64,000 nucleotides of DNA from Parvibaculum lavamentivorans DS-1 (GTDB lineage Bacteria; Pseudomonadota; Alphaproteobacteria; Parvibaculales; Parvibaculaceae). A model generated the notes under the pieces. It was not told the DNA's origin. It saw only the letters and a list, made by a program, of their open reading frames with translations, and did not search any database. Position 1 is the stretch's first letter; every line of letters begins with the position of its first letter. The DNA lies in assembly GCF_000017565.1 (NCBI RefSeq), contig NC_009719.1, positions 2,711,001 through 2,775,000 on the forward strand, written 5' to 3'. Shown piece by piece: positions 3,721 through 61,752 of this stretch. The position numbers and the translations under genes are program-made.

Positions 3721-4629
3721 ATGGAAATCAAATCCAACAATGTCCTCATCGGCGTCTTCACGCTGGTTACTGTCGTCGGCATGTTCCTTTTTCTTCTGTG
3801 GATCAGCGGCGTTCAGTTCAACCGGCAATTCGCCTATTACAAGATCATCTTCGACGGTTCCGTCTCCGGTCTCTCGCAGTCGGGTCCGGTGCAATATAAC
3901 GGCCTGCCCGTCGGCAAGGTGACGGACCTCTATCTGATGGCGCGCAATCCGAACAAGGTGGTTGCCATCATCCAGGTCGATGCGCGCACGCCGGTCAAGG
4001 AAGACTCCGTCGCGCAGCTTGAATTGTCCGGCCTCACCGGCGTCGCCTTCATCCAGCTCACGGGCGGCAGTCCTGAATCCGCCGAACTTCAGGCACGTCC
4101 CGGCCAGGACTATCCGGTCATCAAGGCCGCGCCGTCCTCGCTGCAGGATCTTCTGAAGAGCGGCCCGGAAACGCTGCAGAACGCGAATGAGCTCATCAAG
4201 GAATTGAACAAGGTCGTCGCCGACAACCAGCGGTCGATTTCCGAAGCACTCGCCAATCTCAACACCATTTCGAAGGCGCTGGCCGACAGTTCGGGCGATG
4301 TCACCACGGCGCTCGACCAGATTGCGCAGGCGTCGCGCCACCTCAACAGCATCAGCCGCAGCGCCGACGGGCTGATGAAGGAAGACGTGAAGGCCTTCAT
4401 CGCCGATGCGCGGGAGGCGGCGCGCTCCTACCGCGAAGTCGCGAACGAACTCGACGCCATTCTGAAGCAGGGCGGGCCGGGCATTGCCAGTGGATTGTCG
4501 CAATTGCCGCAGCTGGTCGCGGAGACGCGCGCTCTCGTCTCCTCGCTCGACAGGTTCGCCTCGCGGGCGCAGGACGATCCGGCGCGATACTTCATCGGGC
4601 GCGATGTGCCCGAGGTGGAAGCGGAATGA
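3721..4629 (+). CDS. MlaD-family (MCE domain) lipid-binding protein
   Basis: A 302-residue protein with one N-terminal TM anchor (residues ~7-27), then an MCE domain (~residues 40-120: 'KIIFDGSVSGLSQSGPVQYNGLPVGKV') and a long amphipathic helical C-terminal part. MCE proteins form hexameric rings that carry phospholipids or other hydrophobic compounds between envelope membranes. It lies directly after the ATPase gene and overlaps the following lipoprotein gene by four bases. The helical tail is longer than in E. coli MlaD and resembles the form that lacks separate MlaC/MlaA genes nearby. Confidence 0.92.
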   Translation: MEIKSNNVLIGVFTLVTVVGMFLFLLWISGVQFNRQFAYYKIIFDGSVSGLSQSGPVQYNGLPVGKVTDLYLMARNPNKVVAIIQVDARTPVKEDSVAQLELSGLTGVAFIQLTGGSPESAELQARPGQDYPVIKAAPSSLQDLLKSGPETLQNANELIKELNKVVADNQRSISEALANLNTISKALADSSGDVTTALDQIAQASRHLNSISRSADGLMKEDVKAFIADAREAARSYREVANELDAILKQGGPGIASGLSQLPQLVAETRALVSSLDRFASRAQDDPARYFIGRDVPEVEAE

Positions 4630-5312
4630 GAGGGGCCATGATGAAGACCGCCATTGCAAAACTGACGAGGCTCGCCGCGCTTGTCCTCGTGCTCGCGCCG
4701 CTCGGTGCCTGCGCGCTGGCCGATGTCGCGAGCGGCCCGGCGCCGTCGCTTTATGTGCTGACGGCGCCAACGCCCGCCTTGCCGGGCACCGCCATGGCAG
4801 CGAATACGCAGCTTTCCGTGCGCGAGTTTCAAGCGCCGTCGGCCATCGACACGGGACGGATCGTCTTCCAGCCTTCGCCGAACGAAATCAAATATTATGC
4901 GGGCGCGCGCTGGAGCGATCGGGCGCCCCGCATGATCGCCTCGCTGCTCGTCGAGACGCTGACGAATACCGGCCGCTTCCCCGCCATTCTCGGACCGGAA
5001 ACGCAAGCCCGCACCGATCTCGCGCTGACCGGCGACATCCGCGCCTTCAGTGCCTTCAGGGATGGGGCAGGCCTCGGCGAAGGCGCAACGAAAGTTCGCG
5101 TCGCCTTCTTCGTGCGCCTCGTGCGCGCGCGAGGCGGCGTCGTGTTGGCGGGCAGGGAGTTCACAGCGGAAGCCGCGTCGGCCAGCGGCAGGATGGACGA
5201 CATCGTCGCCGCCTATAACGCGGCGCTCGACACCGCCCTCAGCGACATAACGGCATGGACGCTCGAACAGTCGCTCGCGGCCATGGCCGACGAAGCGCGC
5301 CTCGCCAGTTGA
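4626..5312 (+). CDS. ABC-type transport auxiliary lipoprotein (PqiC/LptE-like family)
   Basis: A 228-residue protein whose N-terminus ends in a lipobox ('APLGAC', cysteine at ~residue 29), so it should be a lipoprotein, probably in the outer membrane. The body fits the 'ABC-type transport auxiliary lipoprotein' family found with MCE transporters: 'YVLTAP' near the start, a central 'YYAGARWSDRAPRMI' and a C-terminal helical 'AYNAALDTALSDITAW'. It is translationally coupled to the MlaD gene by ATGA. In-frame ATG codons at 4638 and 4641 are alternative starts. It likely forms the outer-membrane end of this lipid transporter. Confidence 0.87.
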   Translation: MRGAMMKTAIAKLTRLAALVLVLAPLGACALADVASGPAPSLYVLTAPTPALPGTAMAANTQLSVREFQAPSAIDTGRIVFQPSPNEIKYYAGARWSDRAPRMIASLLVETLTNTGRFPAILGPETQARTDLALTGDIRAFSAFRDGAGLGEGATKVRVAFFVRLVRARGGVVLAGREFTAEAASASGRMDDIVAAYNAALDTALSDITAWTLEQSLAAMADEARLAS

Positions 5313-5319
5313 GCCTGCC

Positions 5320-7566
5320 TCAGACGAGCTTGCCGATCGCCTGTCCAAGCATCAGGTAGACCTTGCCCGTGTCCGAGGTGAGGTAGGTCTCGACCAGGAT
5401 ATTGTCGCGGTCGCGTGTCGATGCGGCGCCGAGCAATTCCTCGAAGCTCGCCACGAAGCGGTCAACATGGCTGCGGAATTCCGCTTCCTTGCGATATTTC
5501 TGCGCGATCCGGTCATAGAGTTCGCGGCCCGCGAGATTGTAGAGCCGCCGCGTGAAGACGTTGCGCTCGCCCGCCTGGTAGCGTTGCCAGAGTTCCGGCG
5601 GCGGGCTCTGCTCCAGCGCCCGGTCGAGATCGATGGCCAGCGCCTGCAGCGTCTCGATGACGTGGAGGGAGGCGCGCTGGAAATCCTGATCGCTGCCATG
5701 GGCGAGGTCGTGCTGCGCGCCGCCACTCTTGCGCTCGGCGGCGGCAAGCAGTTCCGACATGCCCCAGCGCCGCTGCCTGTCGGCAACGCGCGGCAGTTCC
5801 GGCTGCGGTGCCATGCGCTGCGGGAAGGCGCTTTCGCGCGGCAGCGGTGCGGGCGCGGAGCGGTCGAGCGTGCGCGCATGGCGCACCACGATTTCGGCAA
5901 TGGCCGCCAGCGCGCCGATCTGCTCCTCCAGCACGTCCTTCAGGGCCTCGGCGCTCACTGCCGCTTCGCCCGGCAATTCGTCGATGCGGCTCGCCAGTTC
6001 GTCCGTCGCCTCGTGCAGGGCGCGGCCTGCTTCCCGCGCCGTGCCGCCGAGGCGGATCATGGCGGCGTTGAAGCGTTCGGACGCCGTCTCGCCATCGGCG
6101 GTTGCCGCTTCCACCAGCTTGCGCATTTCCTCGGTCCGCTGGCCGATCTCTTCGGCCAGCGTCGTCGTCACGCGCGTCACCTCGTGGTTCATCGCATTGG
6201 TCGCGGCGGTCAGCTTGCCCGTCGTCGTCTCGATCGCTTCGGTCGCGGCGCGGCTGACATCATTTGCCAGTGCGCCTGTCGCCGCCTTCAGCTCGTCCAC
6301 GGTCGCGCCGATGGCGCGCGTCGCCGCGCCCGCCGAGCGGCTGACCGATGTCGAGGCGTCCGCCGCCTCGCTCGCGCCGAGGCGGATCTGGTCGGCGATG
6401 CTTTCGCGCAGCGCCGCCGCGCGCGCCGCCGCCGCCTCGAAGGTCACGTCGAGCCCGGCGCTCAGGCCGGAAACCGCGCGGGAGATTTCCGCCGTGTGAT
6501 GGGCGAGCGCCTTGTCGGCCGCCGTCATGCCGTCGCGATGCGCCTCGAACACGGCCTGCAGCCGCTGATGTTCCTGCTCCAGCCGTCCGGCGGCTTCGGC
6601 AATCGTTTCGCGCTGCCGCTCGTAGCGCTGGCCGATTTCGTCGGCCTTGGACAGCGCATCGTTCGCCACGACTTCAAGCCGCGAGGATTGCCGGTCGAGC
6701 ATTGTCGCCGTCTGGTCGGCGCCCGCGCGCGCCGCTTCGCTTGTCCGCGACAGGGCTTCCGCCTGTTCCGACAGCCGCTTGCTGGCCGCTTCAAGGTCGC
6801 CTTCCGCCTTGCCGGCGAGGCCGCGCACGGCATCCACCTGTTCGCGGATGGCGCGCGAGATCGTGTCGCTTTCCGCGCCCAGCGTCTTCGATATTTCCTC
6901 AAGTCCGTCCTTGTGGCGGTGGAGCAGCTCCTCCATCGTCCGTGCGCGGAATTCGGCGCGGCCTGTGCCGCGGTCGATTTCCTCCACCTCGCGCTCGACA
7001 AGCTCCTTCAGCTCGGCTGCCTGTTTCAGCGCCGCGTCGAGGCCCGCGCGCATCTCGCCCAGTTCGCGGCGCACGGCTTCGGAGATGGTGGTGATCTGGC
7101 CGGTCGCGAAATCCTCCGGGTCCGACAGGCGGATCGCCGTCCGCGCCAGCGCCTCCGACATCAGGCGCATTTCCGCGCCGCGCCAGACCGTCCAGGCCAG
7201 CATCCAGATCAGCGTGAGAGGGGCGAGCACCACAGCCGCGATCAGCCCCTGTTCGAGCGGCGCCAGCGCCTGCAATCCGTCGATGCCGTAAAGCCCGATC
7301 AGGTAGGCCGCTTCCGCGCCGATGCAGAAGATGCTCGCCAGCGCCGCCACGCCGATGATGCGCTTGCTCGGCCGCCGCGCGATCATGCGGTAGAGCGCGC
7401 CGCCGGTCGGGCTGTCCTCGTTCGCGGCGCGGATCGCCAGCGCCGTGTCGGCTTCGGCTTTCGCTGCGGCGTCTGCGGGCGCCTCGTCCGGCACCAGATC
7501 GTTGTTTTTCATGAGCTTTCCCGGCCTGAGCGCCCCCTTCGGCCATATCAAATTGTCGGATGCCAT
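5320..7566 (-). CDS. Large two-TM coiled-coil protein, TipN-like architecture
   Basis: About 748 residues. There is a short acidic N-terminus, two TM helices (~residues 70-92 and 107-127), then ~450 residues of Ala/Glu/Arg-rich heptad-like sequence, and a globular, less repetitive end (~620-748) containing 'WGMSELLAAAE' and 'FVASFEELLGAA'. Two N-terminal TM segments plus a long cytoplasmic coiled coil is the layout of the Caulobacter polarity landmark TipN, so I infer a TipN-like role. The family assignment rests on architecture and recall of the C-terminal pattern, not on alignment. The start is uncertain: ATG 7566 or ATG 7512. It converges on the Mla operon with only 7 bases between stops and diverges from the HPt gene. 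Confidence 0.75.
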   Translation of the reverse strand: MASDNLIWPKGALRPGKLMKNNDLVPDEAPADAAAKAEADTALAIRAANEDSPTGGALYRMIARRPSKRIIGVAALASIFCIGAEAAYLIGLYGIDGLQALAPLEQGLIAAVVLAPLTLIWMLAWTVWRGAEMRLMSEALARTAIRLSDPEDFATGQITTISEAVRRELGEMRAGLDAALKQAAELKELVEREVEEIDRGTGRAEFRARTMEELLHRHKDGLEEISKTLGAESDTISRAIREQVDAVRGLAGKAEGDLEAASKRLSEQAEALSRTSEAARAGADQTATMLDRQSSRLEVVANDALSKADEIGQRYERQRETIAEAAGRLEQEHQRLQAVFEAHRDGMTAADKALAHHTAEISRAVSGLSAGLDVTFEAAAARAAALRESIADQIRLGASEAADASTSVSRSAGAATRAIGATVDELKAATGALANDVSRAATEAIETTTGKLTAATNAMNHEVTRVTTTLAEEIGQRTEEMRKLVEAATADGETASERFNAAMIRLGGTAREAGRALHEATDELASRIDELPGEAAVSAEALKDVLEEQIGALAAIAEIVVRHARTLDRSAPAPLPRESAFPQRMAPQPELPRVADRQRRWGMSELLAAAERKSGGAQHDLAHGSDQDFQRASLHVIETLQALAIDLDRALEQSPPPELWQRYQAGERNVFTRRLYNLAGRELYDRIAQKYRKEAEFRSHVDRFVASFEELLGAASTRDRDNILVETYLTSDTGKVYLMLGQAIGKLV

Positions 7567-8431: not shown

Positions 8432-9556
8432 TCACCCCCGCACCATCCCCAGAACCTCCTCGGCAATCGCCAGCGATGCCGTCAGCCCCGGGCTCTCGAT
8501 GCCGAACAAATTGACGAGCCCCGTTATCCCGTGTGCCTCCGGCCCCGAGATGACGAAATCCGCCGCCGCTTCGCCGGGTGCGTTGATCTTCGGCCGCACG
8601 CCGGCATAGCCCGGCGCCAGCGCGCCATCCGCCAGGCCCGGCCAATAGCGCCGCACCTCGGCATAGAAGGCGTCGCCCCGCGCCGGGTTCACCGCATAGT
8701 CGAGATCGCCGTCTTTCGGTTCGATCCATTCGACATCCGGCCCGAAGCGCGCCTGACCGCCCATGTCGAGCGTCAGATGCACGCCGAGCCCCGCCGCTTC
8801 CGGCACCGGATAGATGAGGCGGCTGAAAGGCGCGCGGCCGGTCAGCGTGAAATAATTTCCCTTGGCGAAAGAGGCGGCCGGAACATGCGCCGCGTCGAGC
8901 CCTTCAATATGCGCGGCGAGGGCAGGGGCCCAGAGTCCGCCCGCATTGATGACGATCCGTGTACGGAGCCTCATGGGTTCCTCGCCCTCGACATGGACGA
9001 TGAAGCCGTTCCTGTCCCGCTCCACCCGCGTCACCCGCGACCCGAAGGCAATCGCGCCGCCTGCATCCTCGAACTCGCCTTGCAGGCTCAGCATATAGGC
9101 ATGGGCATCGAGAATGCCGGTCGAGGGTGAGTGCAGCGCCGCCACGCAATGGAGCGCCGGCTCCATCGCGCGGGCCTCCGCCGCGCTCATCTCCTGAATG
9201 TCGGAGACGCCGTTCGCCCGTGCCCTCTCCGCCACGCCGCCCAGCGTGGCCAGTTGCGCCTCTTCCGTCGCGACGATCAGCTTCCCCGTCCGCCGGTAGG
9301 GCAGGCCATGCGCGTCGAGATAGCGATAAAGCATCCCGCGCCCCGCCACGCAGAACCGCGCCTTCAGGCTTCCTTCGGGATAATAGAGGCCGGCATGGAT
9401 CACCTCGCTGTTCCGCGCCGAGACTTCGGTCCCGACAGCCTCATGCCGCTCCAGCACGATGGTCTCACGCCCGGCCCGCGACAACGCCCGCGCTGAAGCA
9501 AGCCCGATCACACCCGCGCCCACCACCACCGCCCCGATTTCCGCATCCGCCGCCAA
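8432..9556 (-). CDS. FAD-dependent oxidoreductase, L-2-hydroxyglutarate oxidase-like
   Basis: A 374-residue member of the DAO/L2HGDH flavoprotein group. The FAD-binding GxGxxG is '[12 protein letters not shown]' (residues ~10-21), followed by '[25 protein letters not shown]', which is characteristic of L-2-hydroxyglutarate dehydrogenases/oxidases (LhgO/YgaF). The C-terminal '[23 protein letters not shown]' closes the FAD site. Members oxidise L-2-hydroxyglutarate or related 2-hydroxy acids. The exact substrate cannot be fixed from sequence reading. A Pho box lies about 350 bases upstream and points toward it. Confidence 0.85.
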
Positions 9557-9660
9557 ATACTCTCTCCCTCAGGTCACAGTCCAAGCAGTGACGGAGAATT
9601 GGGAGGGTGGCAAGGGGCGGCTGAGGCGCGTGATGTTCGGAGGCCGCCCTATATAGAAGT

Positions 9661-9684
9661 GTCATCCCGGCGGAAGCCGGGAAC
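9661..9684 (+). repeat. GTCATCCCGG palindromic repeat, single copy
   Basis: Same family as the 8.2-8.4 kb cluster (GTCATCCCGGCGGAAGCCGGG), preceded by the same 'tagaagt' tail as the 8320 copy. Stem CCCGGC/GCCGGG. It lies in the leader region upstream of the FAD oxidoreductase. Confidence 0.7.
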
Positions 9685-9713
9685 CATGGGCCGCGCTGGG
9701 CAGGCAAAAGAGG

Positions 9714-9980
9714 GGATTATTTATTTTCGGAAAATCTCTACCCGGGCATAACTCACCGCGCTCATGGCAGCGCAACATATCCCCTCATGCAGCTGCGAAA
9801 GGAGGGGCGTCGTACGTAATTCAGCACCTCCCGGCGCACGCAAACCCGCTCCGCGAAGCGTGCATTTCGCTTGAGGCTGACGTCTCGCGAACACCCCAAA
9901 AAGCTTTGTGACGGTCTCGTGACAGTTCGATGACAGTCGTTGCGTTTATCCCCGCTTTGGAACCCGAAAATAAATAATCC
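9714..9980. repeat. 267-bp segment bounded by perfect 17-bp inverted repeats
   Basis: The 17-mer GGATTATTTATTTTCGG at 9714-9730 recurs as its exact reverse complement at 9964-9980. The termini are AT-rich in a GC-rich genome and the match stops abruptly on both sides. No target-site duplication is visible and there is no convincing ORF inside. The segment contains the Pho box at 9908-9936 and an internal hairpin (GCACGC...GCGTGC, ~9837-9864). It could be a MITE-like element, a remnant, or a structured transcript. It fills most of the 459-base gap between the oxidoreductase and sulfatase genes. Confidence 0.6.
9908..9936 (-). promoter_or_regulatory. Pho box (three 7-mers, 11-bp period)
   Basis: On the reverse strand the order is CTGTCAT (9936-9930), CGAA, CTGTCAC (9925-9919), GAGA, CCGTCAC (9914-9908). 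This matches the PhoB half-site consensus CTGTCAT with 4-base spacers, a three-unit tandem array. It points toward lower coordinates, i.e. toward the FAD oxidoreductase start 350 bases away. No good -10 or ORF lies immediately downstream, so the regulated transcript is unclear. Confidence 0.7.
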
Positions 9981-10015
9981 TCGGTTTTTCCGCCCCATCC
10001 GAATCCGTATACAGA

Positions 10016-12086
<2,071 letters not shown>

Positions 12087-12560: not shown

Positions 12561-13652
<1,092 letters not shown>

Positions 13653-13669
13653 GCTTATCGAGGTCAGTC

Positions 13670-13993
13670 ATGCGTATCATTCTAATCGATACCGAAGGCG
13701 TCGAGCACACGCTTGAGGCCGCGGAAGGTTGGCGGGTGATGGAGATCATCCGCGACTACGGGTTTCCCATTGTGGCCGAGTGCGGGGGCGCCTGCGCCTG
13801 CGGTACCTGCCAGGTCGAAGTCGATCCGGACTGGGCCGCGAAACTTCACGAGCCGCGAGAGGAAGAGCTGGATATGCTCGACCAGAATTACGGCGGCGAA
13901 TGGTCACGCCTGTCCTGTCAGCTTCTCATGAACGCGAAGCTCGACGGGCTGCGCGTGCGCCTTGCCGATATCGCGATCCGCAAAGCTGCCTGA
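13670..13993 (+). CDS. [2Fe-2S] ferredoxin, adrenodoxin type (second copy)
   Basis: A 107-residue ferredoxin with ligands C38, C44, C47 ('CGGACACGTC') and C83 ('LSCQLLM'). It is a paralogue of the ferredoxin at 11766-12086, sharing the cluster loop but divergent elsewhere. It lies 17 bases after the ferredoxin reductase gene, so the two should be co-transcribed and form an NADPH-to-ferredoxin electron chain. The terminal acceptor (for example a P450 or other oxygenase) is not in the window. Confidence 0.93.
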   Translation: MRIILIDTEGVEHTLEAAEGWRVMEIIRDYGFPIVAECGGACACGTCQVEVDPDWAAKLHEPREEELDMLDQNYGGEWSRLSCQLLMNAKLDGLRVRLADIAIRKAA

Positions 13994-14051
13994 CCGGCAG
14001 CCGCTGGACAAGTCCTGCTGCAACCTGCCAAGAATGGTGCAGGAGGCATAC

Positions 14052-14453
14052 GTGCAGCGACTCTCTTTCATTCTCATTCTGGTGTTTGCACTTTTTGTGC
14101 AGGGCAACGCTTTTGCGGAGCCGGCGCCTGCGGTAGAGACCACGCTTTATTTTGGTCTTGGTCTCGCCGATGGTGGCAGCGTGAGCGAAGACGATTGGGA
14201 TGGGTTTCTCAGGGATGTCGTAACGCCGCGATTTCCCGGGGGCTTCAGCGTTGTGGAGGCCCATGGACAATGGCGTGATCCTGATGTTGCAGAGGCGCCA
14301 ATCATTCGGGAAGTCACGAAAATTCTCATCATCGTTCATCCCAAGACGCCCGCCACTGAAGCTTCCATTGGTGAATTGAAATCGATCTATAGCGAACTCT
14401 TTCACCAGAAATCGGTTTTCCATACCGAGTCTCCCACACGGATTGTGGAGTAG
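14052..14453 (+). CDS. Secreted DUF3574-family protein
   Basis: About 133 residues. The GTG at 14052 is preferred because AGGAGG lies five bases upstream and the protein then begins with a clean signal peptide (residues 1-22, ending AFA). An upstream in-frame ATG at 14034 lacks a ribosome site. The mature part has the DUF3574 pattern 'TTLYFGLGLADGG...DDWDGFLRDVVTPRFPGGFSV...GQWRD'. The function of this family is unknown; it is small and probably periplasmic. It may share a transcript with the ferredoxin upstream and the UPF0280-like gene 8 bases downstream. Confidence 0.82.
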   Translation: MQRLSFILILVFALFVQGNAFAEPAPAVETTLYFGLGLADGGSVSEDDWDGFLRDVVTPRFPGGFSVVEAHGQWRDPDVAEAPIIREVTKILIIVHPKTPATEASIGELKSIYSELFHQKSVFHTESPTRIVE

Positions 14454-48671: not shown

Positions 48672-48686
48672 TTAACGCCACTTTAA
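48672..48686 (+). promoter_or_regulatory. CtrA-type box before fliX
   Basis: TTAA (48672-48675), seven bases, TTAA (48683-48686): exact consensus, 71 bases before the fliX ATG. fliX is a CtrA-controlled class II gene in Caulobacter. Confidence 0.8.
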
Positions 48687-53200: not shown

Positions 53201-53469
53201 CTCTGAAAATCAAATAAAATCAATGGCTTGTGTTGTGCCCTGGGGCTTGCGGGGTGGCTCGCGGAAGGCTTTACCGGGCAGTTTCTGCCGGATGCGGCGG
53301 CGAAGCGGGCGGGGAGGCAGACATATTCTATTAAGACAACTACACGAGAGCGCCATCCGCCAACGCTTCGTTAACCAAAGTCGGCGAGCATCCGGTTGTA
53401 GCGGCAAATATGCCGCGCGCTTGCGGCGCCGGATGACATCCGGTGCCGGTTTCAGCTGGGGTATTTCAA

Positions 53470-53973
53470 ATGGCAGCAGTCGACGCTGACATCTCCGAAG
53501 ACGAGGAAGACGCCTCCGCACCGCCGGCGAAGCGCCGGCTCGCGGGCAAGGTGCTGGTGCTCTATGTCGTGCTGCCGGTTCTGCTTCTGGTGGGCGCGGG
53601 CGTGGGCGTCTACATGTCCGGCATTCTGGGCGGCACTTCCGAAGAGGAACATGCGGTCGTGGCCGCACCCGCACCTGTCTTTTACGATCTCCCCGACTTT
53701 CTCGTAAATCTCAGCGGGCCGCCGCCGCAACATTACCTGAAGCTTCGCGTCGCACTCGAAGTGCCGAGCAAGGAAACCGTTGCGCGTCTCGAAGCGGAGA
53801 TGCCGCGCGTGCTCGACGGTTTTCAGACATTCCTGCGCGAGTTGCGCCCGGAAGATCTCGAAGGATCGCAGGGCATGCTCAACCTCAAGGAAGAGCTCAT
53901 GCGCCGCCTGGCGCTCGCCACGCAGGAGCCGCTGGTGACGGACGTGCTCTTCAAGGAAATCATCGTTCAATAA
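53470..53973 (+). CDS. fliL: Flagellar basal body protein FliL
   Basis: A 167-residue FliL: an acidic cytoplasmic start ('ISEDEEDASAPPAKRR'), one TM helix (~residues 30-52) and a periplasmic domain ('FYDLPDFLVNLSGPPPQHYLKLRVALEV'). It supports stator function. First gene of fliL-fliM-DUF6468-motE-like. The 341-base region shared with flgF holds one GTTAACC half-site (53370-53376) but no complete CtrA box or clear sigma-54 site in this direction. Confidence 0.93.
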   Translation: MAAVDADISEDEEDASAPPAKRRLAGKVLVLYVVLPVLLLVGAGVGVYMSGILGGTSEEEHAVVAAPAPVFYDLPDFLVNLSGPPPQHYLKLRVALEVPSKETVARLEAEMPRVLDGFQTFLRELRPEDLEGSQGMLNLKEELMRRLALATQEPLVTDVLFKEIIVQ

Positions 53974-54000: not shown

Positions 54001-55125
54001 ATGACCGCCACCGATCTTCAGGAACAAGGACAGGAAGCGCTCGCCGCCGCCGCGGAGGCCGCGACGAAGGCGCCTGAGCGCGTGCTCAACCAGGACGAGA
54101 TCGACAGCCTGCTGGGCTTCGAGCTCGACGGCGATTCCACGCCGGAACGGCATGGCATCGATGCCATCGTCAATTCGGCGCTGGTCTCCTATGAACGCCT
54201 GCCGATGCTTGAAATCGTGTTCGACAGGCTTGTCCGCCTGATGACGGTTTCGCTGCGTAACTTCACATCCGACAACGTCGAAGTGTCGCTCGACAATGTG
54301 TCGTCCATTCGCTTCGGCGATTACCTCAATTCCATTCCGTTGCCCGCCATTCTTGCGGTTTTCCGCGCGAAGCAGTGGGACAATTACGGGATGTTCACGG
54401 TCGACTCGAACCTGATCTATTCGATCGTCGACGTGCTGCTCGGCGGACGGCGCGGCACGGCAGCCATGCGGATCGAAGGGCGGCCCTATACGACCATCGA
54501 ACTCAATCTCGTCCAGCGCATGATCGAAGTGGTGCTGCAGGACGTGCAGTCGGCTTTCGAGCCGCTGTCGCCGGTGACGCTCGAACTCGACCGGATGGAA
54601 ACCAATCCGCGCTTCGCGGCCATTGCGCGGCCTGCAAACGCCGCCATTCTCGTGAAGCTGCGCGTCGACATGGAAGACCGCGGCGGCCGCATCGAGCTGC
54701 TGCTACCTTATGCGACGCTCGAACCGATCCGCGAGCTGCTGTTGCAGATGTTCATGGGCGAGAAATTCGGCCGGGACACGATCTGGGAAAGCCATCTCGC
54801 GACGGAGTTGTGGGCGACGAAAGTGCCGCTGGAGGCGGTGCTCGACGAACAACAGCTTTCGCTGCGCGAAGTGATGGATTTCCGCGTCGGACAGACGCTG
54901 ATGCTCAATAGCGGGCCGGAGGGCGCGATCGACCTGCGCTGCGGCGGCGTGCGCCTCGGCAAGGGCAAGATGGGCCGGGTCGGCAATCATGTCGCCGTGC
55001 GCGTGGAGCAGGCGATAAAGAATGCGCGGCGCGCCGTTCTCGCCGCCGCGCCCGATGCGGCGGCGCCCTCGGTGCCGCTTGAACTTCATGCACCCGCAGT
55101 CAAGCCCGGAGGAGCTGGGAAATGA
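54001..55125 (+). CDS. fliM: Flagellar motor switch protein FliM
   Basis: A 374-residue switch protein. The CheY-binding 'LNQDEIDSLLGF' lies at ~residues 29-40, later than usual because of an Ala-rich N-terminal extension. Then come the FliM middle domain ('FTSDNVEVSLDNVSSIRFGDYLNSIPLPAIL') and the C-terminal SpoA domain ('REVMDFRVGQTLMLNSGPEGAIDLRCGGVRLGKGKMGRVGN'). It sets rotation direction. It overlaps the next gene by ATGA. Confidence 0.95.
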   Translation: MTATDLQEQGQEALAAAAEAATKAPERVLNQDEIDSLLGFELDGDSTPERHGIDAIVNSALVSYERLPMLEIVFDRLVRLMTVSLRNFTSDNVEVSLDNVSSIRFGDYLNSIPLPAILAVFRAKQWDNYGMFTVDSNLIYSIVDVLLGGRRGTAAMRIEGRPYTTIELNLVQRMIEVVLQDVQSAFEPLSPVTLELDRMETNPRFAAIARPANAAILVKLRVDMEDRGGRIELLLPYATLEPIRELLLQMFMGEKFGRDTIWESHLATELWATKVPLEAVLDEQQLSLREVMDFRVGQTLMLNSGPEGAIDLRCGGVRLGKGKMGRVGNHVAVRVEQAIKNARRAVLAAAPDAAAPSVPLELHAPAVKPGGAGK

Positions 55126-55601
55126 CGCCAGATCTGCCGCTCGGGGTATTCCTCGAGATCATCGTTTGCGTGTTTCTCGCGGCCACGATCGCCTATTGCG
55201 CGATGCTCGACCGGCGGTTGCGCGCCATGCGCTCCGGCCAGGACGGATTGCGCGACCTTGTTCGCGAACTCAACGTGGCGACGCAGCGCGCGGTAACGGC
55301 CATCGACGGGTTGAAGCAGGCAAGCGCCGCGACGAACGACGAACTGGGCGAACGGGTGCGGACAGGGCGCATTCTTGCCGACGAACTGACATTGATGATC
55401 GAAGCGGGAAACAGCATCGCGGAACGGCTTGGACATGGCGACCGCCCGGCTTTGCCGCGCGCGCCGTCGCCTTCGGCCACTTTCCAGCCCGGCAACGGAC
55501 CGCGTTCGACGCCGGTGCCCAAACCCGCCTCCGGCCGCGACTCGGCCACGGCCGCGCGTGCCGCCCACCAGCTTCTGGATGCGCTGAAGCGCAGCCGCTG
55601 A
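55122..55601 (+). CDS. DUF6468-family flagellar-associated protein
   Basis: A 159-residue protein with one N-terminal TM helix (~residues 7-27), a helical segment ('RLRAMRSGQDGLRDLVRELNVATQRAVTAIDGLKQASAATNDELGERVRTGRILADEL') and a Pro/Arg-rich tail. This small family sits after fliM in alphaproteobacterial flagellar operons; its role is unknown. It is translationally coupled to fliM. Confidence 0.82.
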   Translation: MTPDLPLGVFLEIIVCVFLAATIAYCAMLDRRLRAMRSGQDGLRDLVRELNVATQRAVTAIDGLKQASAATNDELGERVRTGRILADELTLMIEAGNSIAERLGHGDRPALPRAPSPSATFQPGNGPRSTPVPKPASGRDSATAARAAHQLLDALKRSR

Positions 55602-55625: not shown

Positions 55626-56387
55626 ATGCTCGACCGTCTCCGCCTTTTGCCGACCGTCATCCTCTGCGCCTCGCTGCTGCTGGTGCTGAAACTCGCCGAA
55701 GTGGCGACGGGTGGTGAAAGCACGGCATCGCTCGGGGCCATCTCGGTTGCTCATGCGAATGCGCCCGAACCGGAGCCGGCGGAAGAGCCGAAAGCGGAAG
55801 CCGAGGCCGAGGCCGAGGCCGAGGCCGGAACAGCGGCGGAGGGTGAGGCGGAAACGGCCGGCATGCAGCCGGAAGCCGCAGCTGCGGAAGAAGCGGCGCC
55901 GCGGCTGAGCAAATCCGAAATTTCCGTCCTCGAAAGCCTCGCCGAGCGCCGCAAGGAGCTCGACAGCCGCGCCGAAGGTCTCGACACGCGGGAGCGGCTG
56001 CTGGCCGCCGCCGAAAAGCGCGTGGAGGAGCGGGTCGCCGAGCTGAAGGAAATCGAGGCGCGGATCAACCAGCAGATCAGCCGCCAGGATGCCGAGGGCG
56101 AAGAGCGGCTGGCCGGGCTCGTGTCGATGTATGAAACGATGAAGCCGAAGGATGCCGCGCGCATTTTCGAGCGGCTCGACATGGGCGTGCTGCTCGACGT
56201 GGTCAAGCGGATGCAGCCGCGCAAGATGGCCGCCGTGCTCGCGGCGATGGATCCCGTTGTGGCACAGGATCTGACGGTAGAACTTGCGGTGGGCGACCGG
56301 CTGAACGTGGCGCCCGCAGCCTCCGAGGACGAGATGCCGCAGGCAACACCGGAAGCGGCGCTGGCACCTGCGCAAAAAGCCAGCTAA
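55626..56387 (+). CDS. MotE-like flagellar protein (MgtE-N-like domain)
   Basis: A 253-residue protein: N-terminal TM anchor (~residues 6-24), an Ala/Glu-rich linker with repeated A-E pairs (~55-80), a coiled coil (~100-160) and an MgtE-N-like domain ('LVSMYETMKPKDAARIFERLDMGVLLDVVKRMQPRKMAAVLAAMDPVVAQDLTVELA'). MotE-type proteins stabilise stator components such as MotC in rhizobia. It ends the fliL operon. Confidence 0.82.
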   Translation: MLDRLRLLPTVILCASLLLVLKLAEVATGGESTASLGAISVAHANAPEPEPAEEPKAEAEAEAEAEAGTAAEGEAETAGMQPEAAAAEEAAPRLSKSEISVLESLAERRKELDSRAEGLDTRERLLAAAEKRVEERVAELKEIEARINQQISRQDAEGEERLAGLVSMYETMKPKDAARIFERLDMGVLLDVVKRMQPRKMAAVLAAMDPVVAQDLTVELAVGDRLNVAPAASEDEMPQATPEAALAPAQKAS

Positions 56388-56409: not shown

Positions 56410-56424
56410 TTAAATCCCACTTAA
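56410..56424 (+). promoter_or_regulatory. CtrA-type box before the 1159-residue gene
   Basis: TTAA (56410-56413), seven bases, TTAA (56421-56424), exact consensus. It is 23 bases after the end of the motE-like gene, giving the next gene its own cell-cycle-type promoter. Confidence 0.75.
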
Positions 56425-56449
56425 CCGACAGCCCCATAAACTGCGGGTC

Positions 56450-59400
56450 ATGCGCGGCAGAAAGCCGTTGCGAGCCAGCAGAAGCTTCAGGGGCATACCG
56501 GGCGTGAACCGAATCCACCCACATATCGCGCGACACAGCGGGGTCGGAAGGCCGCGCCATTTTCTCATGGGAATGGCCGCCCTGCTGCTGATGCTCGCTG
56601 CCTTCGTTCCCGACGCGCGGGCGGAAGCCATGCGCGTTGCGCTGAGCGAGAAGGATGGCTACGGCCGAATGGTCTTCACCGCGCCGGGCGGGGAGCCCAG
56701 CGTTCGCGCTTCCATCAGTTCAGGCGTTCTGGTGATCGCGTTCGGCAAGGCGAGCGGGCTCGATCCGGATCTCTTCCTGCGGACCATGCCGCGCTATTTC
56801 GCAATGGTGCGGCAGGATGGCAATGAAAGCACCTTGCGGTTCGCTCTTACGACCGAGTTCCGGCTTGATGTCAAAAAGGCCGAGAACGCCGTTTACGTAG
56901 ACCTGTTGCCGCCGGACTGGGCGGGCGAGGCGCCGCCCTTGCCGGCCGATGTGGTCGCGCGTGTCGCGGCTGCGGAAGAGGCGAAACAGAAGGCGGAAGA
57001 AGCCGCGCGACTAGCGAAGGCGCAGGGCATCGTCGAGCCCGATGCGCCGCCGCCGGGCCTTGCCGTGCGCGTGGTTGCGCGCGATGGCATGACGCGGCTC
57101 GTCTTCGACTGGAACCAGCCGGTGCTTTACTCGCTGGTGCAGCGGCAGGGGCTCGCAACCATCACATTCGATCGCACGGCAAAGGTCGACCTGTCGTCGC
57201 TCCGTGTCGATCCGCCGCCTTATCTCAGCCATGCCAGCGCGACCGAACATGACGGACGCCTCGCCGTGATCCTGACGTTGAAGCCCGGCGTGAGTATCGC
57301 CGACTTCCGCGAGGATATGGGCGTGGTGCTGGACCTGAAGCCCGCGCAGGGCGGCATCGAGGATGAAGCGAAAGCCGCAGCCGCGGCATTGACGGATGAG
57401 AAGAAGGCGCCCGCGCCGAGGGACATCAGGCCTGAGACCGCGCGGGGAGCGGAAGAGCCGGCCGCCACGGCGGAGGCGCCGGAAGATGTTCCGCCGGCGG
57501 AAGAGATGGCGGCGGCGCCGGGGAAGACGAATGCGATGCCGCAAGGCGGGCGGCCTGAAGGAAAGGCCGTCGTCCGCATTCAGCCGGGGCGCAGCGGCAT
57601 GGATGTCATTGTCGCATGGCCGGAGCCTGTCGGCGCGGCGGTCTTCGAGCGGGCGGGGCGGCTGTGGGCGGTGTTCGATGCCGCGCTGCCGATGGATATT
57701 TCCGGGATCGAGGCGGAAACGTCCGGTCCCTTCGGCGCGCCGGAAGTAGTGCGTTTCGAGGGAGGAACGGCGCTGGTGCTGCCGCTCCGCGAGCGGGTGC
57801 TTGTGGGCGCCATCGAGGAAGGCGCGTCCTGGCGGATATCGGCGGGCGAGACGCTGACGACGACGGGGCGGCCGATTGCGACTTCGCGGGACTGGCGGGA
57901 CGACGGGCGGGGCAGCGTGACATTCGATTTCGCCGGCGCGCGGCGCATTCTGACGGTGGGCGACCCGCTGGTGCGCGACACGATCGTTGTTGCGACGGCG
58001 CGCGGTCCGGTGCAATCGCTGCAGACGGCGCGCAGCTATGTCGAATTCCAGGCATTGCAGACGGCGCAGGGGATCGCCATCGTGCCCGTGGCCGACGATG
58101 TGAATGTCGCGGCGGCGCCGGACAATGTGCTCGTGTCGCGGCGTGAGGGGCTGACACTCTCCGCCGACGATCACCGGGACGGGAGCGGCGATAGCGAAAG
58201 CGCGTCCGTTGCGTCGGTGCCGGTGACGTCGCTGATGAATTTCGAGGAATGGCGCAAGGCGCCGGGCGAGACGTTCACGGAACGGCGCCAGCATTATCTT
58301 TCGCGTTTCGTGCAGGCGCAGGCGCATGAGCTCGGCAAGCTGCGGTTCGAATATGGGCGGTTCCTGTTGGCCTATGGGCTCGCACCGGAAGCACGCTCCA
58401 TGCTCGAAAAGGCGGCGGAGGCGAATACGCGCTATGGGATCGACCCGACTTACCGCGCGGTGAAGGGCGTGGCGGGCGTGATGAGCGGACGCTATGTGGA
58501 CGCGATCAACGATCTCTCCTCCACCGGCCTCGAGAACGCGCCCCATGCGGCGGTCTGGCGCGGGCTCGCGCGGACGGAGCTCGGGCATTGGGAAGCGGCG
58601 CGGGCGCAGTTCGGCCTGGCCGGTGCGGTCATAGACGCTTTCGACGACGATCTGCGGACGCTGTTCCGGTCGCGGGCGGCGAAGGCGTCGCTGAGGGGCG
58701 GCGATCTGGCCGCCGCGCAGCATTACGCGGAAGGGTTTCCCGCAGCGCCCCCCGGAAAACAGGCCAAAGCCGAAATCCTGCTCGTGAATGCGATGATCGC
58801 GGATGCGCGAGGCGGGAAGGAAGAGGCGGTCAGGCGCTATGAGGCGGCCATCGCAAACGGCTATCCGCCGGTTGCGGCGCGGGCCCGTTTCGGCAAGGCG
58901 GTGCTGCTTCACAAGGCGGGCGAGCTCGACGACGAGGCTTATGCGAAAGAGCTCGAGTCGCTGCGTTTCGCGTGGCGCGGCGACGATCTGGAACTCGATG
59001 TGCTGACGCAACTGGCGGCGCTGCGGCTGGAGCAAGGCGAGATCGCGGATGCGCTGAAGCTCATGCAGATCGCGACGGCGAATTATCCGGACAGCGACGA
59101 AGCGCACCGGATGAACATGCGCATGTCGGACATCTTCGCCGATTATTTCCTGAGCGAGAAGGCGAACGAGATGCCGCCGGTGCAGGCGCTCGCCTTTTTC
59201 GATGCCTTCAAGGAATTGACGCCCATCGGAAGCAAGGGCGACGAGATGATCCGCCACCTGGCGGAACGCCTGGTTGCGGTCGATCTCCTGCCGCAAGCCG
59301 AACATCTGCTCGATTATCAGGTGGCAAACCGGCTGCATGGCGGCATCGCCAAGGCGCAGGTCGCGGCACGGCTTGCGGCTATCTACCTTCTCGACCAGAA

Positions 59401-59929
59401 GGCCGACCGGGCGCTGGCGGCGCTTCGGGCGACGAAGCAGAACCTGCTGCCGGAGGCCCTGGCGGAGCGGCGGCGTTTGCTCGAAGCGCGCGCCCTGGCG
59501 GACCTCAAGCAATATGACAATGCGCTCGATCTACTGGAGGAGAAGACGGACGATCTCTCCGTGCGGCTGCGGGTCGATGTGCTGTGGGACAGCGGCCGCT
59601 GGCAGGATGCCGGACCGGCAATCGAGGCCCTTCTCGGCGACGCATGGAAGACGGAGGAGCCGCTGTCCGATGAGATGCGGCTTCTGGTGATGCGTGGCGC
59701 CATTGCCTATTCGCTCGCCGGAGAGGAGGGCGGTCTCTCGCGGCTGAGGACGAAATTCGGTGAGGCGATGGCGGCGAGCCCGGATGCGAGCGCCTTTGCG
59801 ATCGTGTCGGATCCGATCGTGCAGCAAGGCGTCGCCTTCCGCGAGATGGCAAGCCGCATCGCATCGATCGATACGCTCGACCGGTTTCTCGCTTCGCTGA
59901 AAACGGACGACGCGACGGTGCTGAACTAG
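56450..59929 (+). CDS. Large putative periplasmic protein: three AMIN-like beta domains plus TPR-like repeats
   Basis: Up to 1159 residues. A hydrophobic segment (~41-53) ending 'PDARAEA' looks like a signal peptide. Three similar beta-rich segments follow (~60-155, 205-305, 380-480), each of the form 'R-V/I-x-Arg-x-G-x-x-R-hydrophobic' and resembling AMIN domains. They are separated by Ala/Glu/Pro linkers. From ~residue 595 to the end it is helical, TPR-like ('AHELGKLRFEYGRFLLAYGLAPEARSMLEKAAEAN', 'GLARTELGHWEAARAQFGLAG'). Start uncertain: the CtrA box suggests transcription begins near 56450, so GTG 56504 or ATG 56567 may be the true start. No named homologue recognised. Confidence 0.72.
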   Translation: MRGRKPLRASRSFRGIPGVNRIHPHIARHSGVGRPRHFLMGMAALLLMLAAFVPDARAEAMRVALSEKDGYGRMVFTAPGGEPSVRASISSGVLVIAFGKASGLDPDLFLRTMPRYFAMVRQDGNESTLRFALTTEFRLDVKKAENAVYVDLLPPDWAGEAPPLPADVVARVAAAEEAKQKAEEAARLAKAQGIVEPDAPPPGLAVRVVARDGMTRLVFDWNQPVLYSLVQRQGLATITFDRTAKVDLSSLRVDPPPYLSHASATEHDGRLAVILTLKPGVSIADFREDMGVVLDLKPAQGGIEDEAKAAAAALTDEKKAPAPRDIRPETARGAEEPAATAEAPEDVPPAEEMAAAPGKTNAMPQGGRPEGKAVVRIQPGRSGMDVIVAWPEPVGAAVFERAGRLWAVFDAALPMDISGIEAETSGPFGAPEVVRFEGGTALVLPLRERVLVGAIEEGASWRISAGETLTTTGRPIATSRDWRDDGRGSVTFDFAGARRILTVGDPLVRDTIVVATARGPVQSLQTARSYVEFQALQTAQGIAIVPVADDVNVAAAPDNVLVSRREGLTLSADDHRDGSGDSESASVASVPVTSLMNFEEWRKAPGETFTERRQHYLSRFVQAQAHELGKLRFEYGRFLLAYGLAPEARSMLEKAAEANTRYGIDPTYRAVKGVAGVMSGRYVDAINDLSSTGLENAPHAAVWRGLARTELGHWEAARAQFGLAGAVIDAFDDDLRTLFRSRAAKASLRGGDLAAAQHYAEGFPAAPPGKQAKAEILLVNAMIADARGGKEEAVRRYEAAIANGYPPVAARARFGKAVLLHKAGELDDEAYAKELESLRFAWRGDDLELDVLTQLAALRLEQGEIADALKLMQIATANYPDSDEAHRMNMRMSDIFADYFLSEKANEMPPVQALAFFDAFKELTPIGSKGDEMIRHLAERLVAVDLLPQAEHLLDYQVANRLHGGIAKAQVAARLAAIYLLDQKADRALAALRATKQNLLPEALAERRRLLEARALADLKQYDNALDLLEEKTDDLSVRLRVDVLWDSGRWQDAGPAIEALLGDAWKTEEPLSDEMRLLVMRGAIAYSLAGEEGGLSRLRTKFGEAMAASPDASAFAIVSDPIVQQGVAFREMASRIASIDTLDRFLASLKTDDATVLN

Positions 59930-60672
59930 GTCCCGAAGCTCTGGACGAGGCTTCCCGCGATCAGCGACCAGCCATCCACAAGCACGAAGAAGATGAGCTT
60001 GAACGGCAGTGAGATGATCACCGGCGGCAGCATCATCATGCCCATCGACATCAGCACCGAGGCGACAACCATGTCGATGACGATGAAGGGCAGGAAGACG
60101 AGGAAGCCGATCTCGAAGGCGCGGCGAAGCTCGCTGATCATGAAGGCGGGAACGATCACCTGAAGGCCGATATCGGTTGCTTCCTCGGGCTGCTCGGTCT
60201 GTGAGAGGTCCACGAAAAGCTGCAGGTCCTGCTTGCGCACCTGGGAGAGCATGAAGGTCTTGAAAGGAACGCTCGACCGCTCGAAGGCTTCCGCCGTCTC
60301 GATCTGCTGGTTCATCAAGGGCTCGATGCCTTCATTGTATGCCGTCGTGAAAGTCGGCGTCATGACGAAGGCGGTGAGGAAAAGCGCGAGGCTGACCAGC
60401 ACGGCATTGGGCGGCGACTGTTGCATGCCGAGCGCCGTGCGCAGAAGGCTGAGCACCACGATGATGCGGACGAAGGACGTCACCATGATCAGGATCGAGG
60501 GTGCGAGGCTGAGCACCGTGACCAGGGCGACGATCTGAACGATGTGATCGGTCAGGCCGAGATTGTCGGACAGATCCACCTGGATCGCCTGCGCAAAGGC
60601 GGGCTGTGCGACGCCGAAGCTCAGCAGGACGAGCGCGAGCGCGGGCAGGAACTTGCAAAGGGTACGGATCAC
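59926..60672 (-). CDS. fliP: Flagellar export gate protein FliP
   Basis: A 248-residue protein with a cleavable signal peptide (ends AFA, ~residue 27) and four TM helices: 'IVQIVALVTVLSLAPSILIMVTSFVRIIVVLSLLRTALG', then 'IVPAFMISELRRAFEIGFLVFLPFIVIDMVVASVLMSMGMMMLPPVIISLPFKLIFFVLVDGW'. It forms the core of the export gate with FliQ and FliR. It starts with a GTG at 60672 that overlaps the fliO stop (GTGA). It converges on the 1159-residue gene with a four-base overlap. Confidence 0.95.
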   Translation of the reverse strand: MIRTLCKFLPALALVLLSFGVAQPAFAQAIQVDLSDNLGLTDHIVQIVALVTVLSLAPSILIMVTSFVRIIVVLSLLRTALGMQQSPPNAVLVSLALFLTAFVMTPTFTTAYNEGIEPLMNQQIETAEAFERSSVPFKTFMLSQVRKQDLQLFVDLSQTEQPEEATDIGLQVIVPAFMISELRRAFEIGFLVFLPFIVIDMVVASVLMSMGMMMLPPVIISLPFKLIFFVLVDGWSLIAGSLVQSFGT

Positions 60673-61043
60673 GCGCGGCGCTCCCTGATGAAATCGACAA
60701 TGCGCTGGAACTGGGCGGCGGGGCGCTCGAACGGCAGAACGGGCGCGGCCTCGGCGGGCGCAACCTCTGCCGGCACGGGCGCTTCGATGCCGGTTTCGAC
60801 GAGAAGCGGATGGTCGCCGCCCGTCAGAAGAAGATGTTCCTTGCCATCGCGGCGAATGAGCACGAGACGATGCTTCGGATCGATCTGCTTTACCTCGACG
60901 ATGCCGAGGCGGCGCTGCGAACCCGGCGCCGTGACGCCACCCGGCACAAGGCCGAAACGCTTCGCCAGAACCGCGCAAAGGCCGATCAGGCCGATGATAA
61001 AAGCAAGCGCGGCGACGAACCGGAAGATTTCCGAGAAGTCCAT
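60669..61043 (-). CDS. fliO: Flagellar biosynthesis protein FliO
   Basis: A 124-residue FliO: one TM helix (~residues 7-29), then 'QRRLGIVEVKQIDPKHRLVLIRRDGKEHLLLTGGDHPLLVETGI'. It helps FliP complex assembly. ATG 61043 gives a normal N-terminus; ATG 61055 or 61082 are alternatives. Translationally coupled to fliP and preceded by a CtrA-type box. Confidence 0.87.
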   Translation of the reverse strand: MDFSEIFRFVAALAFIIGLIGLCAVLAKRFGLVPGGVTAPGSQRRLGIVEVKQIDPKHRLVLIRRDGKEHLLLTGGDHPLLVETGIEAPVPAEVAPAEAAPVLPFERPAAQFQRIVDFIRERRA

Positions 61044-61115
61044 TTTGGATTGCATCCCCACCAAAGAGCGGCCGCCCGGCACGCCCTGTCATGGGAAGAA
61101 TTTGCCGCGTCAGGC

Positions 61116-61130
61116 TTAATGCCGGGTTAA
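61116..61130. promoter_or_regulatory. CtrA-type box in the fliO/flgB divergent region
   Basis: TTAA (61116-61119), seven bases, TTAA (61127-61130), exact consensus and symmetric. It is 73 bases before the fliO ATG, so it most likely controls fliO-fliP. Confidence 0.8.
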
Positions 61131-61323: not shown

Positions 61324-61752
61324 ATGGCAATCGGCGATCTTCCCATCTTCGACATGATGAAGCAGCGGCTGCACTGGCTGACAGCGCGCCAGCAGGTGCT
61401 TGCGCAGAACGTCGCCAATTCCGACACGCCGGGCTATGCCGCGAAGGATCTGAAGGAACTCGATTTCGGCGCGCTGGTGAAGCGCAGCGGCCCCTCATTG
61501 ACGCCGGTAGCGACGCAGGGCGGACATATCGGCAGCCCGGTTTCCGGCCATGGCAATTTTTTCCGTCCGGGGCAGTCCACGGGCGGGCAGGTGGTGAAGA
61601 AGGCGGATTTCGAAACCTCGCCGAGCGGCAATTCGGTCGTGCTTGAAGAACAGATGATCAAGGTCGCCGAGACGCAGATGGATTACCAGACCGTGACGGG
61701 GCTCTATTCGAAGAGCCTCGGCCTCATCAGGATCGCGCTCGGCCGTAGCTGA
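61324..61752 (+). CDS. flgB: Flagellar proximal rod protein FlgB
   Basis: A 142-residue rod protein: 'MKQRLHWLTARQQVLAQNVANSDTPGYAAKDLKELDF' and C-terminal 'NSVVLEEQMIKVAETQMDYQTVTGLYSKSLGLIRIALGR'. First gene of flgB-flgC-fliE-fliQ-fliR-flhB, an early (class II) operon. Confidence 0.95.
   Translation: MAIGDLPIFDMMKQRLHWLTARQQVLAQNVANSDTPGYAAKDLKELDFGALVKRSGPSLTPVATQGGHIGSPVSGHGNFFRPGQSTGGQVVKKADFETSPSGNSVVLEEQMIKVAETQMDYQTVTGLYSKSLGLIRIALGRS

Follow-up and report, generated by a model that had tools for sequence, protein, structure and literature searches.

The gene at positions 56504–59929 (+) of a 64,000-nucleotide stretch of Parvibaculum lavamentivorans DS-1 DNA (contig NC_009719.1, positions 2,711,001 to 2,775,000; this whole stretch is called the window here) very probably encodes a periplasmic scaffold for the stators of alphaproteobacterial flagella, of the type represented by FssB in Caulobacter crescentus and MotK in Cereibacter sphaeroides. 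It lies directly 3′ of a MotE-like gene in a fliL–fliM–pflI–motE cluster, and its product is predicted to join AMIN-fold domains to a long tetratricopeptide repeat (TPR)-like superhelix. An initial annotation, made from the sequence alone, had read the protein as an accessory motor scaffold resembling PflA or else as a cell-wall binding factor; its gene place, its domain plan and the literature on FssB and MotK support the former reading. Because papers on FssB, MotK and PflA homologues are in print, the scaffold idea is right in kind but already largely published; what this analysis adds is class-wide numbers, a link to MotK, a conserved block in the TPR region and a MotB-like gene pair. It assigns the protein, probably of 1141 residues, to a family of which members in Caulobacter and Cereibacter are required for rotation.

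Domain architecture of the protein

The mature protein was modelled with AlphaFold2 from 22 sequences (mean predicted local distance difference test, pLDDT, 80.6; predicted template modelling score, pTM, 0.45), and the beta domains come out the same when the N-terminal half is modelled on its own. Residues are numbered along the 1159-residue open reading frame (ORF). The signal-peptide-like start described in the initial annotation is borne out by a signal peptide region (56504–56623, +) in which a hydrophobic core, MGMAALLLMLAAFV, and the sequence PDARA|E, where cleavage would fall, were read by eye here and in relatives. It is followed by D1 (residues 62–153; 56633–56908, +), an AMIN-like beta domain modelled as four strands, a helix and four strands; by D2 (residues 203–298; 57056–57343, +); and by D3 (residues 373–466; 57566–57847, +), an AMIN-like beta domain modelled without the helix. 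In the predicted model D2 has the AMIN fold, a beta-sandwich as in the AmiC N terminus: VIA-align places it on the AMIN domain of Escherichia coli AmiC (4bin; Z 13.9, root-mean-square deviation (rmsd) 2.4, 102 residues), as well as on AMIN domains of PilQ (4aqz, Z 11.9; 4av2, Z 11.3). D1 and D3 appear AMIN-like through their profile matches to D2 (prob 99.8 and 98.5, respectively), and class-wide profiles of the three domains match one another in hhalign (prob 97.8–99.8, E 8e-13 to 1e-27). The three similar beta segments of the initial annotation are therefore mutually homologous, but it had missed a fourth beta domain, D4 (residues 478–564; 57881–58141, +), which comprises about ten short strands in the models and whose profile showed no similarity to those of D1–D3 in hhalign (prob <1).

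The C-terminal part is modelled as a TPR-like superhelix (residues 598–1149; 58241–59896, +), which extends over about 550 residues, in keeping with the roughly 500 residues of TPR-like helices first described. Its best solved match is NprR (4gpk; VIA-align Z 18.7, rmsd 5.2, 297 residues), and it also matches the consensus TPR proteins 9qhb (Z 16.7) and 8chy (Z 16.5). We name this part by fold because the Pfam TPR models stay under their curated cut-offs (TPR_16, 27.3 bits against 32.7, E 5e-6; TPR_14, 17.5 against 23.5). Within it, residues 905–985 (59162–59404, +) form the most conserved block of the family, with the consensus FRELTPxGxxGDxMIRxLADRLVxVDLL...; across 79 sequences, including that of the window, its mean column entropy is 1.47, compared with 2.39–2.80 for the ten remaining regions. 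This block is a candidate partner-binding surface, and hence a target for mutations that probe the binding partners of the scaffold.

The architecture recurs across the family: 78 of 105 sequences have three AMIN domains and D4, 25 have two AMIN domains and D4, and two are partial. All 25 two-AMIN forms fall among the 79 class-draw sequences, 54 of which have three AMIN domains; D4 was detected in 104 of the 105, the sole exception being partial. A 655-residue relative (L141, genome G027) matches the family hidden Markov model (HMM) at E 1e-86, but solely in the TPR parts and without an AMIN match. A single-sequence search of solved structures returned only an antibody chain (E 0.63), and profile searches of them returned no flagellar or AMIN chain, the best results being one TPR protein at E 0.004 for A1, nothing under E 0.014 for A2 (MotE) and nothing under E 0.15 for A3. 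Among the best 50 VIA-align matches to the full model there was no flagellar scaffold, a result that excludes nothing.

Comparison with FssB, MotK and PflA

A published counterpart in gene position and domain plan is FssB (CC_2058, CCNA_02137) of C. crescentus, a protein with a Sec signal and TPR region whose deletion leaves cells with filaments but non-motile, like a motB mutant (PMC7885107). CC_2058 lies directly downstream of the MotE-like gene CC_2059, and motE of Caulobacterales belongs to the fliL operon (PMC10954123, PMC13023049). CC_2059 and CC_2058 have been termed FlgY and PflA homologues, respectively, CC_2058 being a PflA-like partner of CC_2059, an E-ring protein (preprint PMC11870540; review PMC13023049). 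The Parvibaculum protein shares with FssB the Sec signal, the TPR region, the position of its gene directly after a MotE-like gene and an AMIN-like N-terminal domain, which has been reported for FssB (PMC7885107, PMC10954123, PMC13023049). CC_2058 is modelled in the figures of PMC11870540, and we therefore do not claim the three-domain plan as unseen. Outside subscription journals, a literature search on motor proteins that combine AMIN and TPR parts brought up this preprint and a paper on Helicobacter.

MotK of C. sphaeroides, a periplasmic protein of 652 amino acids with a predicted AMIN fold and TPRs, is essential for rotation; it interacts with MotE and MotB2, its localisation depends on the stator proteins, and both MotK and MotE are found at the flagellated pole (PMC10954123). 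Like the Parvibaculum protein, it has an N-terminal AMIN fold and C-terminal TPRs and is encoded in a fliL operon with motE, although in Cereibacter motA lies between motE and motK, unlike in the Parvibaculum locus. No BLAST similarity was found between MotK and the Caulobacteraceae proteins, according to the same paper. In three genomes (G186, G247 and G015), fliL–pflI–motE is followed by room for motA and then by ORFs of 776, 830 and 775 residues, respectively, an order equal to that published for the Cereibacter fla2 cluster (PMC10954123); in locus L161 a MotA-like ORF was seen by eye between motE and the ORF in the MotK position. The family HMM, run with filters off on a set of 84 sequences, matches the three ORFs at E 3.4e-17, 4.5e-27 and 4.4e-17 in the AMIN and TPR parts and also in the segment before the TPRs, whereas the best of 40 scored shuffles reached −0.2 bits. 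With default filters, the third ORF (L161) is reached by the D2 model alone (E 6e-6). Gene order is what suggests that these three ORFs are MotK, and they differ from the scaffold protein in having one AMIN match and no D4 match. Because no BLAST similarity had been found (PMC10954123), the profile link between FssB-type proteins and these ORFs is a modest gain, one by which a structural guess already in print can be tested as a single family.

The findings on FssB and MotK also bear on a different proposal, to which we give little credence: that the protein is a cell-wall factor opening or marking peptidoglycan for the seating of the rod and P-ring, and so acts in assembly, not rotation. Its AMIN fold is that of AmiC, as this would suggest, and AMIN domains occur in several assembly systems. 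Yet no catalytic domain is found among the family matches, the C. crescentus FssB mutant keeps its filaments but does not swim (PMC7885107), and the localisation of MotK requires stator proteins (PMC10954123).

PflA of Campylobacter jejuni, a partner of FlgY, which is an E-ring protein, likewise has an N-terminal AMIN-like beta-sandwich and C-terminal TPRs (PMC11870540, PMC13023049). The Parvibaculum protein shares this order of an AMIN-like beta part before TPR repeats but has four beta domains compared with one in PflA, and no PflA chain was present among its sequence or profile matches in the PDB. MotC of Sinorhizobium meliloti is another TPR-rich periplasmic partner reported for MotE, with no AMIN domain reported (PMC13023049). 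When MotC was sought in genome G009, no MotE match was found there, and the motB neighbourhood held no clear MotC; nor was a MotC sequence identified elsewhere among the loci read.

As a stator scaffold, the protein would be exported through its Sec signal peptide and would act as a peptidoglycan-anchored spoke between the MotE ring and the stators. Outside the motor, the AMIN domains may grip peptidoglycan or the region of the P-ring, while the TPR superhelix would reach inwards to the MotE ring and MotB, as the MotK binding data suggest, with residues 905–985 possibly contacting MotE or the periplasmic part of MotB. The stators would in this way be placed around the rotor and kept in an open, torque-giving state; loss of the homologues gives a rotation defect. 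CtrA may time synthesis of the scaffold with that of other early flagellar genes.

Distribution in the class and a MotB-like pair

In a survey of 290 genomes of the class, each at least 95% complete, the scaffold protein was found in 152, FliM (PF02154) in 164, DUF6468 in 149 and a match to the MotE profile in 158. FliM and the scaffold protein coincide in 148 genomes; FliM occurs alone in 16 and the scaffold protein without FliM in 4. Two outcomes that the initial annotation had held would speak against its reading were not seen: 148 of 164 FliM-positive genomes carry the gene, which is thus not missing from most flagellated relatives, and Pfam and NCBIfam profile searches gave no significant score for any enzyme family. 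Within the FliM-positive genomes, 146 have both the scaffold protein and MotE, 2 the scaffold protein only, 5 MotE only and 11 neither (Fisher p 8e-12, kinship ignored). Ten of those 11 (G006, G009, G076, G113, G160, G202, G207, G210, G226, G272 and G285) have a weak FliM match (E above 1e-40), as if they carried another flagellar type.

The tight co-occurrence with MotE would also suit a protein that chiefly stabilises MotE, or is stabilised by it, and has no structural place in the motor, in the way that MotE of Sinorhizobium was first described as a chaperone of MotC. The stability of MotE in Cereibacter depends on MotK (PMC10954123). The chances of this are slimmer still than those of a cell-wall factor, given that MotB2 interacts with MotK and MotE, both of which are located at the flagellated pole (PMC10954123), and that the protein has a large conserved architecture including three AMIN-fold domains.

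Homologous loci numbered 104; of the 80 class-draw loci, L120 was excluded because it gave no tblastn match in the locus analysis, although the class survey had listed a match at this locus, and L027 and L028 are partial. The motE HMM matches in 93 of the 104, with pflI in 90 and fliM in 88. In 92, motE lies upstream on the same strand; L025 fails this rule only through an over-extended ORF. Four of the 11 loci without motE have fewer than 300 bases of upstream sequence. Among 14 control genomes, PF20072, the family at the pflI position, matched only Caulobacter vibrioides. These neighbours argue against the idea that the protein belongs to another envelope system, such as a secretin or type IV pilus with its own AMIN and TPR proteins, and sits in a flagellar cluster by chance. 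Among the structural matches of the N-terminal model PilQ ranks second, and PilQ of Myxococcus xanthus matches residues 1–406 (VIA-align Z 12.8, rmsd 19.3, so that the match spans several domains). However, of the 152 genomes that encode the protein, 148 also have FliM and 147 also have MotE, and the gene carries a CtrA box; we regard a chance location as highly improbable.

Beyond the class survey, a draw of 299 genomes from the phylum gave 45 matches, all 45 in the same class, whose share of the draw is not shown. A genome scan with a single query listed 25 related loci, of which 16 were from Parvibaculum and nine from Rhodobiaceae, Parvibaculaceae, Hyphomicrobiales and other or unplaced lineages, with no Caulobacter among them. 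Nine MotE-positive genomes without a match to the single query were read further; with the family HMM, four of these (G015, G186, G247 and G040) proved to have a member, the one in G040 (E 5e-32) standing beside a second motE.

Several points weigh against a stator scaffold. The functional evidence stems from homologues in other species, and the kinship with CC_2058 is deduced from where the gene lies and how its domains are laid out. The arrangement of the domains in the predicted model is uncertain (pTM 0.45). No Pfam AMIN model is among the protein's Pfam matches at E ≤ 1, so the label 'AMIN', which the initial annotation had already applied, holds by fold (AmiC Z 13.9) and not by family match. 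Chain K of 9hmf, the periplasmic scaffold of C. jejuni, matches weakly (Foldseek E 0.38, prob 0.75). The co-occurrence is uncorrected for phylogeny, and the loci from which the MotE profile was made are ones with the scaffold gene. Azospirillum plasmid proteins, whose kinship is unsettled, reach E 1e-8 to 5e-6, and TPR similarity can be generic. Finally, the family HMM found no member in the stretches read of G136, G083, G236, G237 and G243.

Three individual loci stand apart. The homologue in L145 (G223; 3847–7208, −) is split over three ORFs, either as a broken copy or through sequencing error. L027, on a contig titled Candidatus Marinimicrobia, has an alphaproteobacterial-looking flagellar cluster with a family member, probably reflecting a binning error. 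In G237 (L166), a genome of 1.1 Mb in which the scaffold family was not found, two similar ORFs with signal-like starts (9394–11190, 599 amino acids; 12660–14333, 558 amino acids) lie downstream of fliL–fliM–pflI–motE.

Elsewhere the scaffold gene is often separated from motE by MotB-like or CheZ-like ORFs. Among 71 non-Parvibaculum loci with an upstream motE, two MotB-like ORFs lie between motE and the scaffold gene in 42 (including L060, L061, L062, L064, L067, L071 and L085–L087), one in 6 and none in 23; no such pair occurs in the 21 Parvibaculum-type loci counted. At the position of the channel Asp, 41 of the 42 first members carry S, G or A (that of L073 has D), whereas the second members have D there, in 39 by script and in the other three by eye. 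Similarity to canonical MotB extends along the entire second member (prob 99.5); the first member matches the second (prob 99.4) and canonical MotB weakly (63.5). A further MotB-type match was found elsewhere in 39 of the 40 pair genomes searched, G153 having the pair only; L027 and L028 count among the 42 loci, and their genomes lie outside these 40. At E ≤ 0.1, the P. lavamentivorans genome contains a single MotA_N match and a single MotB_plug match, which lie at 3.09 Mb, distant from the scaffold locus.

One speculative arrangement, which we consider unlikely although less so than the three alternatives above, is that in many Alphaproteobacteria the scaffold works with this pair, which would form an asymmetric heterodimer anchoring or gating a stator–MotE–FssB assembly beside canonical MotAB, and that Parvibaculum has dispensed with the pair and uses canonical MotB alone, with its own CtrA promoter. 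If part of the same machine, the pair would add a novel type of component to the stator. A literature search outside subscription journals found nothing on such a pair, including in the accessible text of PMC12505986. A CheZ-like ORF was detected by HMM in 36 loci, in 33 of them between motE and the scaffold gene; one is in L082, and that of L087 matches Pfam CheZ at E 1.5e-14.

Promoter, translation start and neighbouring genes

Upstream of the gene, at 56410–56424 (+), lies an exact CtrA-type box of the form TTAA-N7-TTAA, TTAAATCCCACTTAA, as the initial annotation had noted; the window holds three exact boxes compared with a mean of 0.06 in 100 dinucleotide shuffles. In aligned relatives the box is exact in 20 of 22 and reads TTAG-N7-TTAA in the other two. 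Across loci, an exact box is present in the upstream stretch of 23 of 103 testable cases, compared with 2.1 expected from the loci's own rates (L016, whose 5′ end is missing, was excluded). In this the gene differs from the wider FssB-bearing family: the box is found in 20 of 22 testable near-relative loci (up to L026) compared with 3 of 81 others (L059, L072 and L079), L059 most likely being L008 counted twice, with contigs of equal length, the same ORF length and the same neighbours. By this comparison of sequences, a CtrA box before the scaffold gene is thus a trait of Parvibaculum and its near kin.

Alignment of the 5′ regions of 22 relatives also revealed a −10-like element, ATAAACTG (56436–56443, +), which may act as such and which is exactly TAGACTG in 12 of the 22 and a variant in the remainder. 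Just past the expected transcription start is an inverted repeat, CGGCAGAAAGCCG (56455–56467, +), and CGGC-N4..6-GCCG occurs 26–30 bases past the box in 16 of 23 sequences, including that of the window. This repeat is a putative FlbD (ftr-like) site, although a literature search for an ftr consensus found none. It might mediate repression by FlbD as an early gene, as at C. crescentus fliF, where FlbD binds an ftr site and represses transcription (PMC3930126). As a widespread flagellar motif the repeat was rejected: allowing two mismatches or fewer, the window has 42 matches compared with 31.9 expected, and 4 of 100 shuffles reach 42. We therefore use only the conservation of the repeat at the scaffold-gene promoter. 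Likewise, CGGCARAA (14 in the window, 8.0 expected) was not used as a widespread motif, and RNA structure in the 5′ leader was dropped (z −1.54; 10 of 200 shuffles fold equally well).

The initial annotation had given the protein 1159 residues, the length of the ORF at 56450–59929 (+) in the ORF list of the window. That ORF exists, but its ATG at 56450 is retained in just 4 of 22 relatives and the intervening indels, not being multiples of three, break the frame, whereas codon 56504 is GTG in 17, TTG in 4 and a gap in 1. Translation therefore probably starts at GTG 56504, giving a coding sequence (56504–59929, +) of 1141 residues and a stop codon; the coding sequence itself is also supported by the ORF list and by homologues.

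Family matches confirm the setting first described, between fliM and a motE-like gene on one side and fliO–fliP on the other. Upstream lie fliL (53443–53973, +; PF03748, E 2e-21), fliM (54001–55125, +; TIGR01397, E 1e-94), a DUF6468 gene (55122–55601, +; PF20072, E 2e-21), which its gene position would equate with pflI, and the gene for the MotE-like E-ring protein (55626–56387, +), the probable partner. This protein matches MgtE_N (E 1e-4) and NCBIfam FlbB (E 2e-9), both below cut-offs, and shares 29–44% identity with 22 MotE-like proteins encoded at homologous loci. Downstream are fliP (59926–60768, −; PF00813, E 1e-81), convergent with the scaffold gene, and fliO (60669–61082, −; PF04347, E 8e-4, just under cut-off). 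The palindrome CTAG at 59926–59929 is the overlap of the stop codons of the scaffold gene and fliP. The other two exact TTAA-N7-TTAA boxes of the window are at 48672–48686 and 61116–61130, the latter between fliO (−) and a rod-gene-like ORF at 61324 (+).

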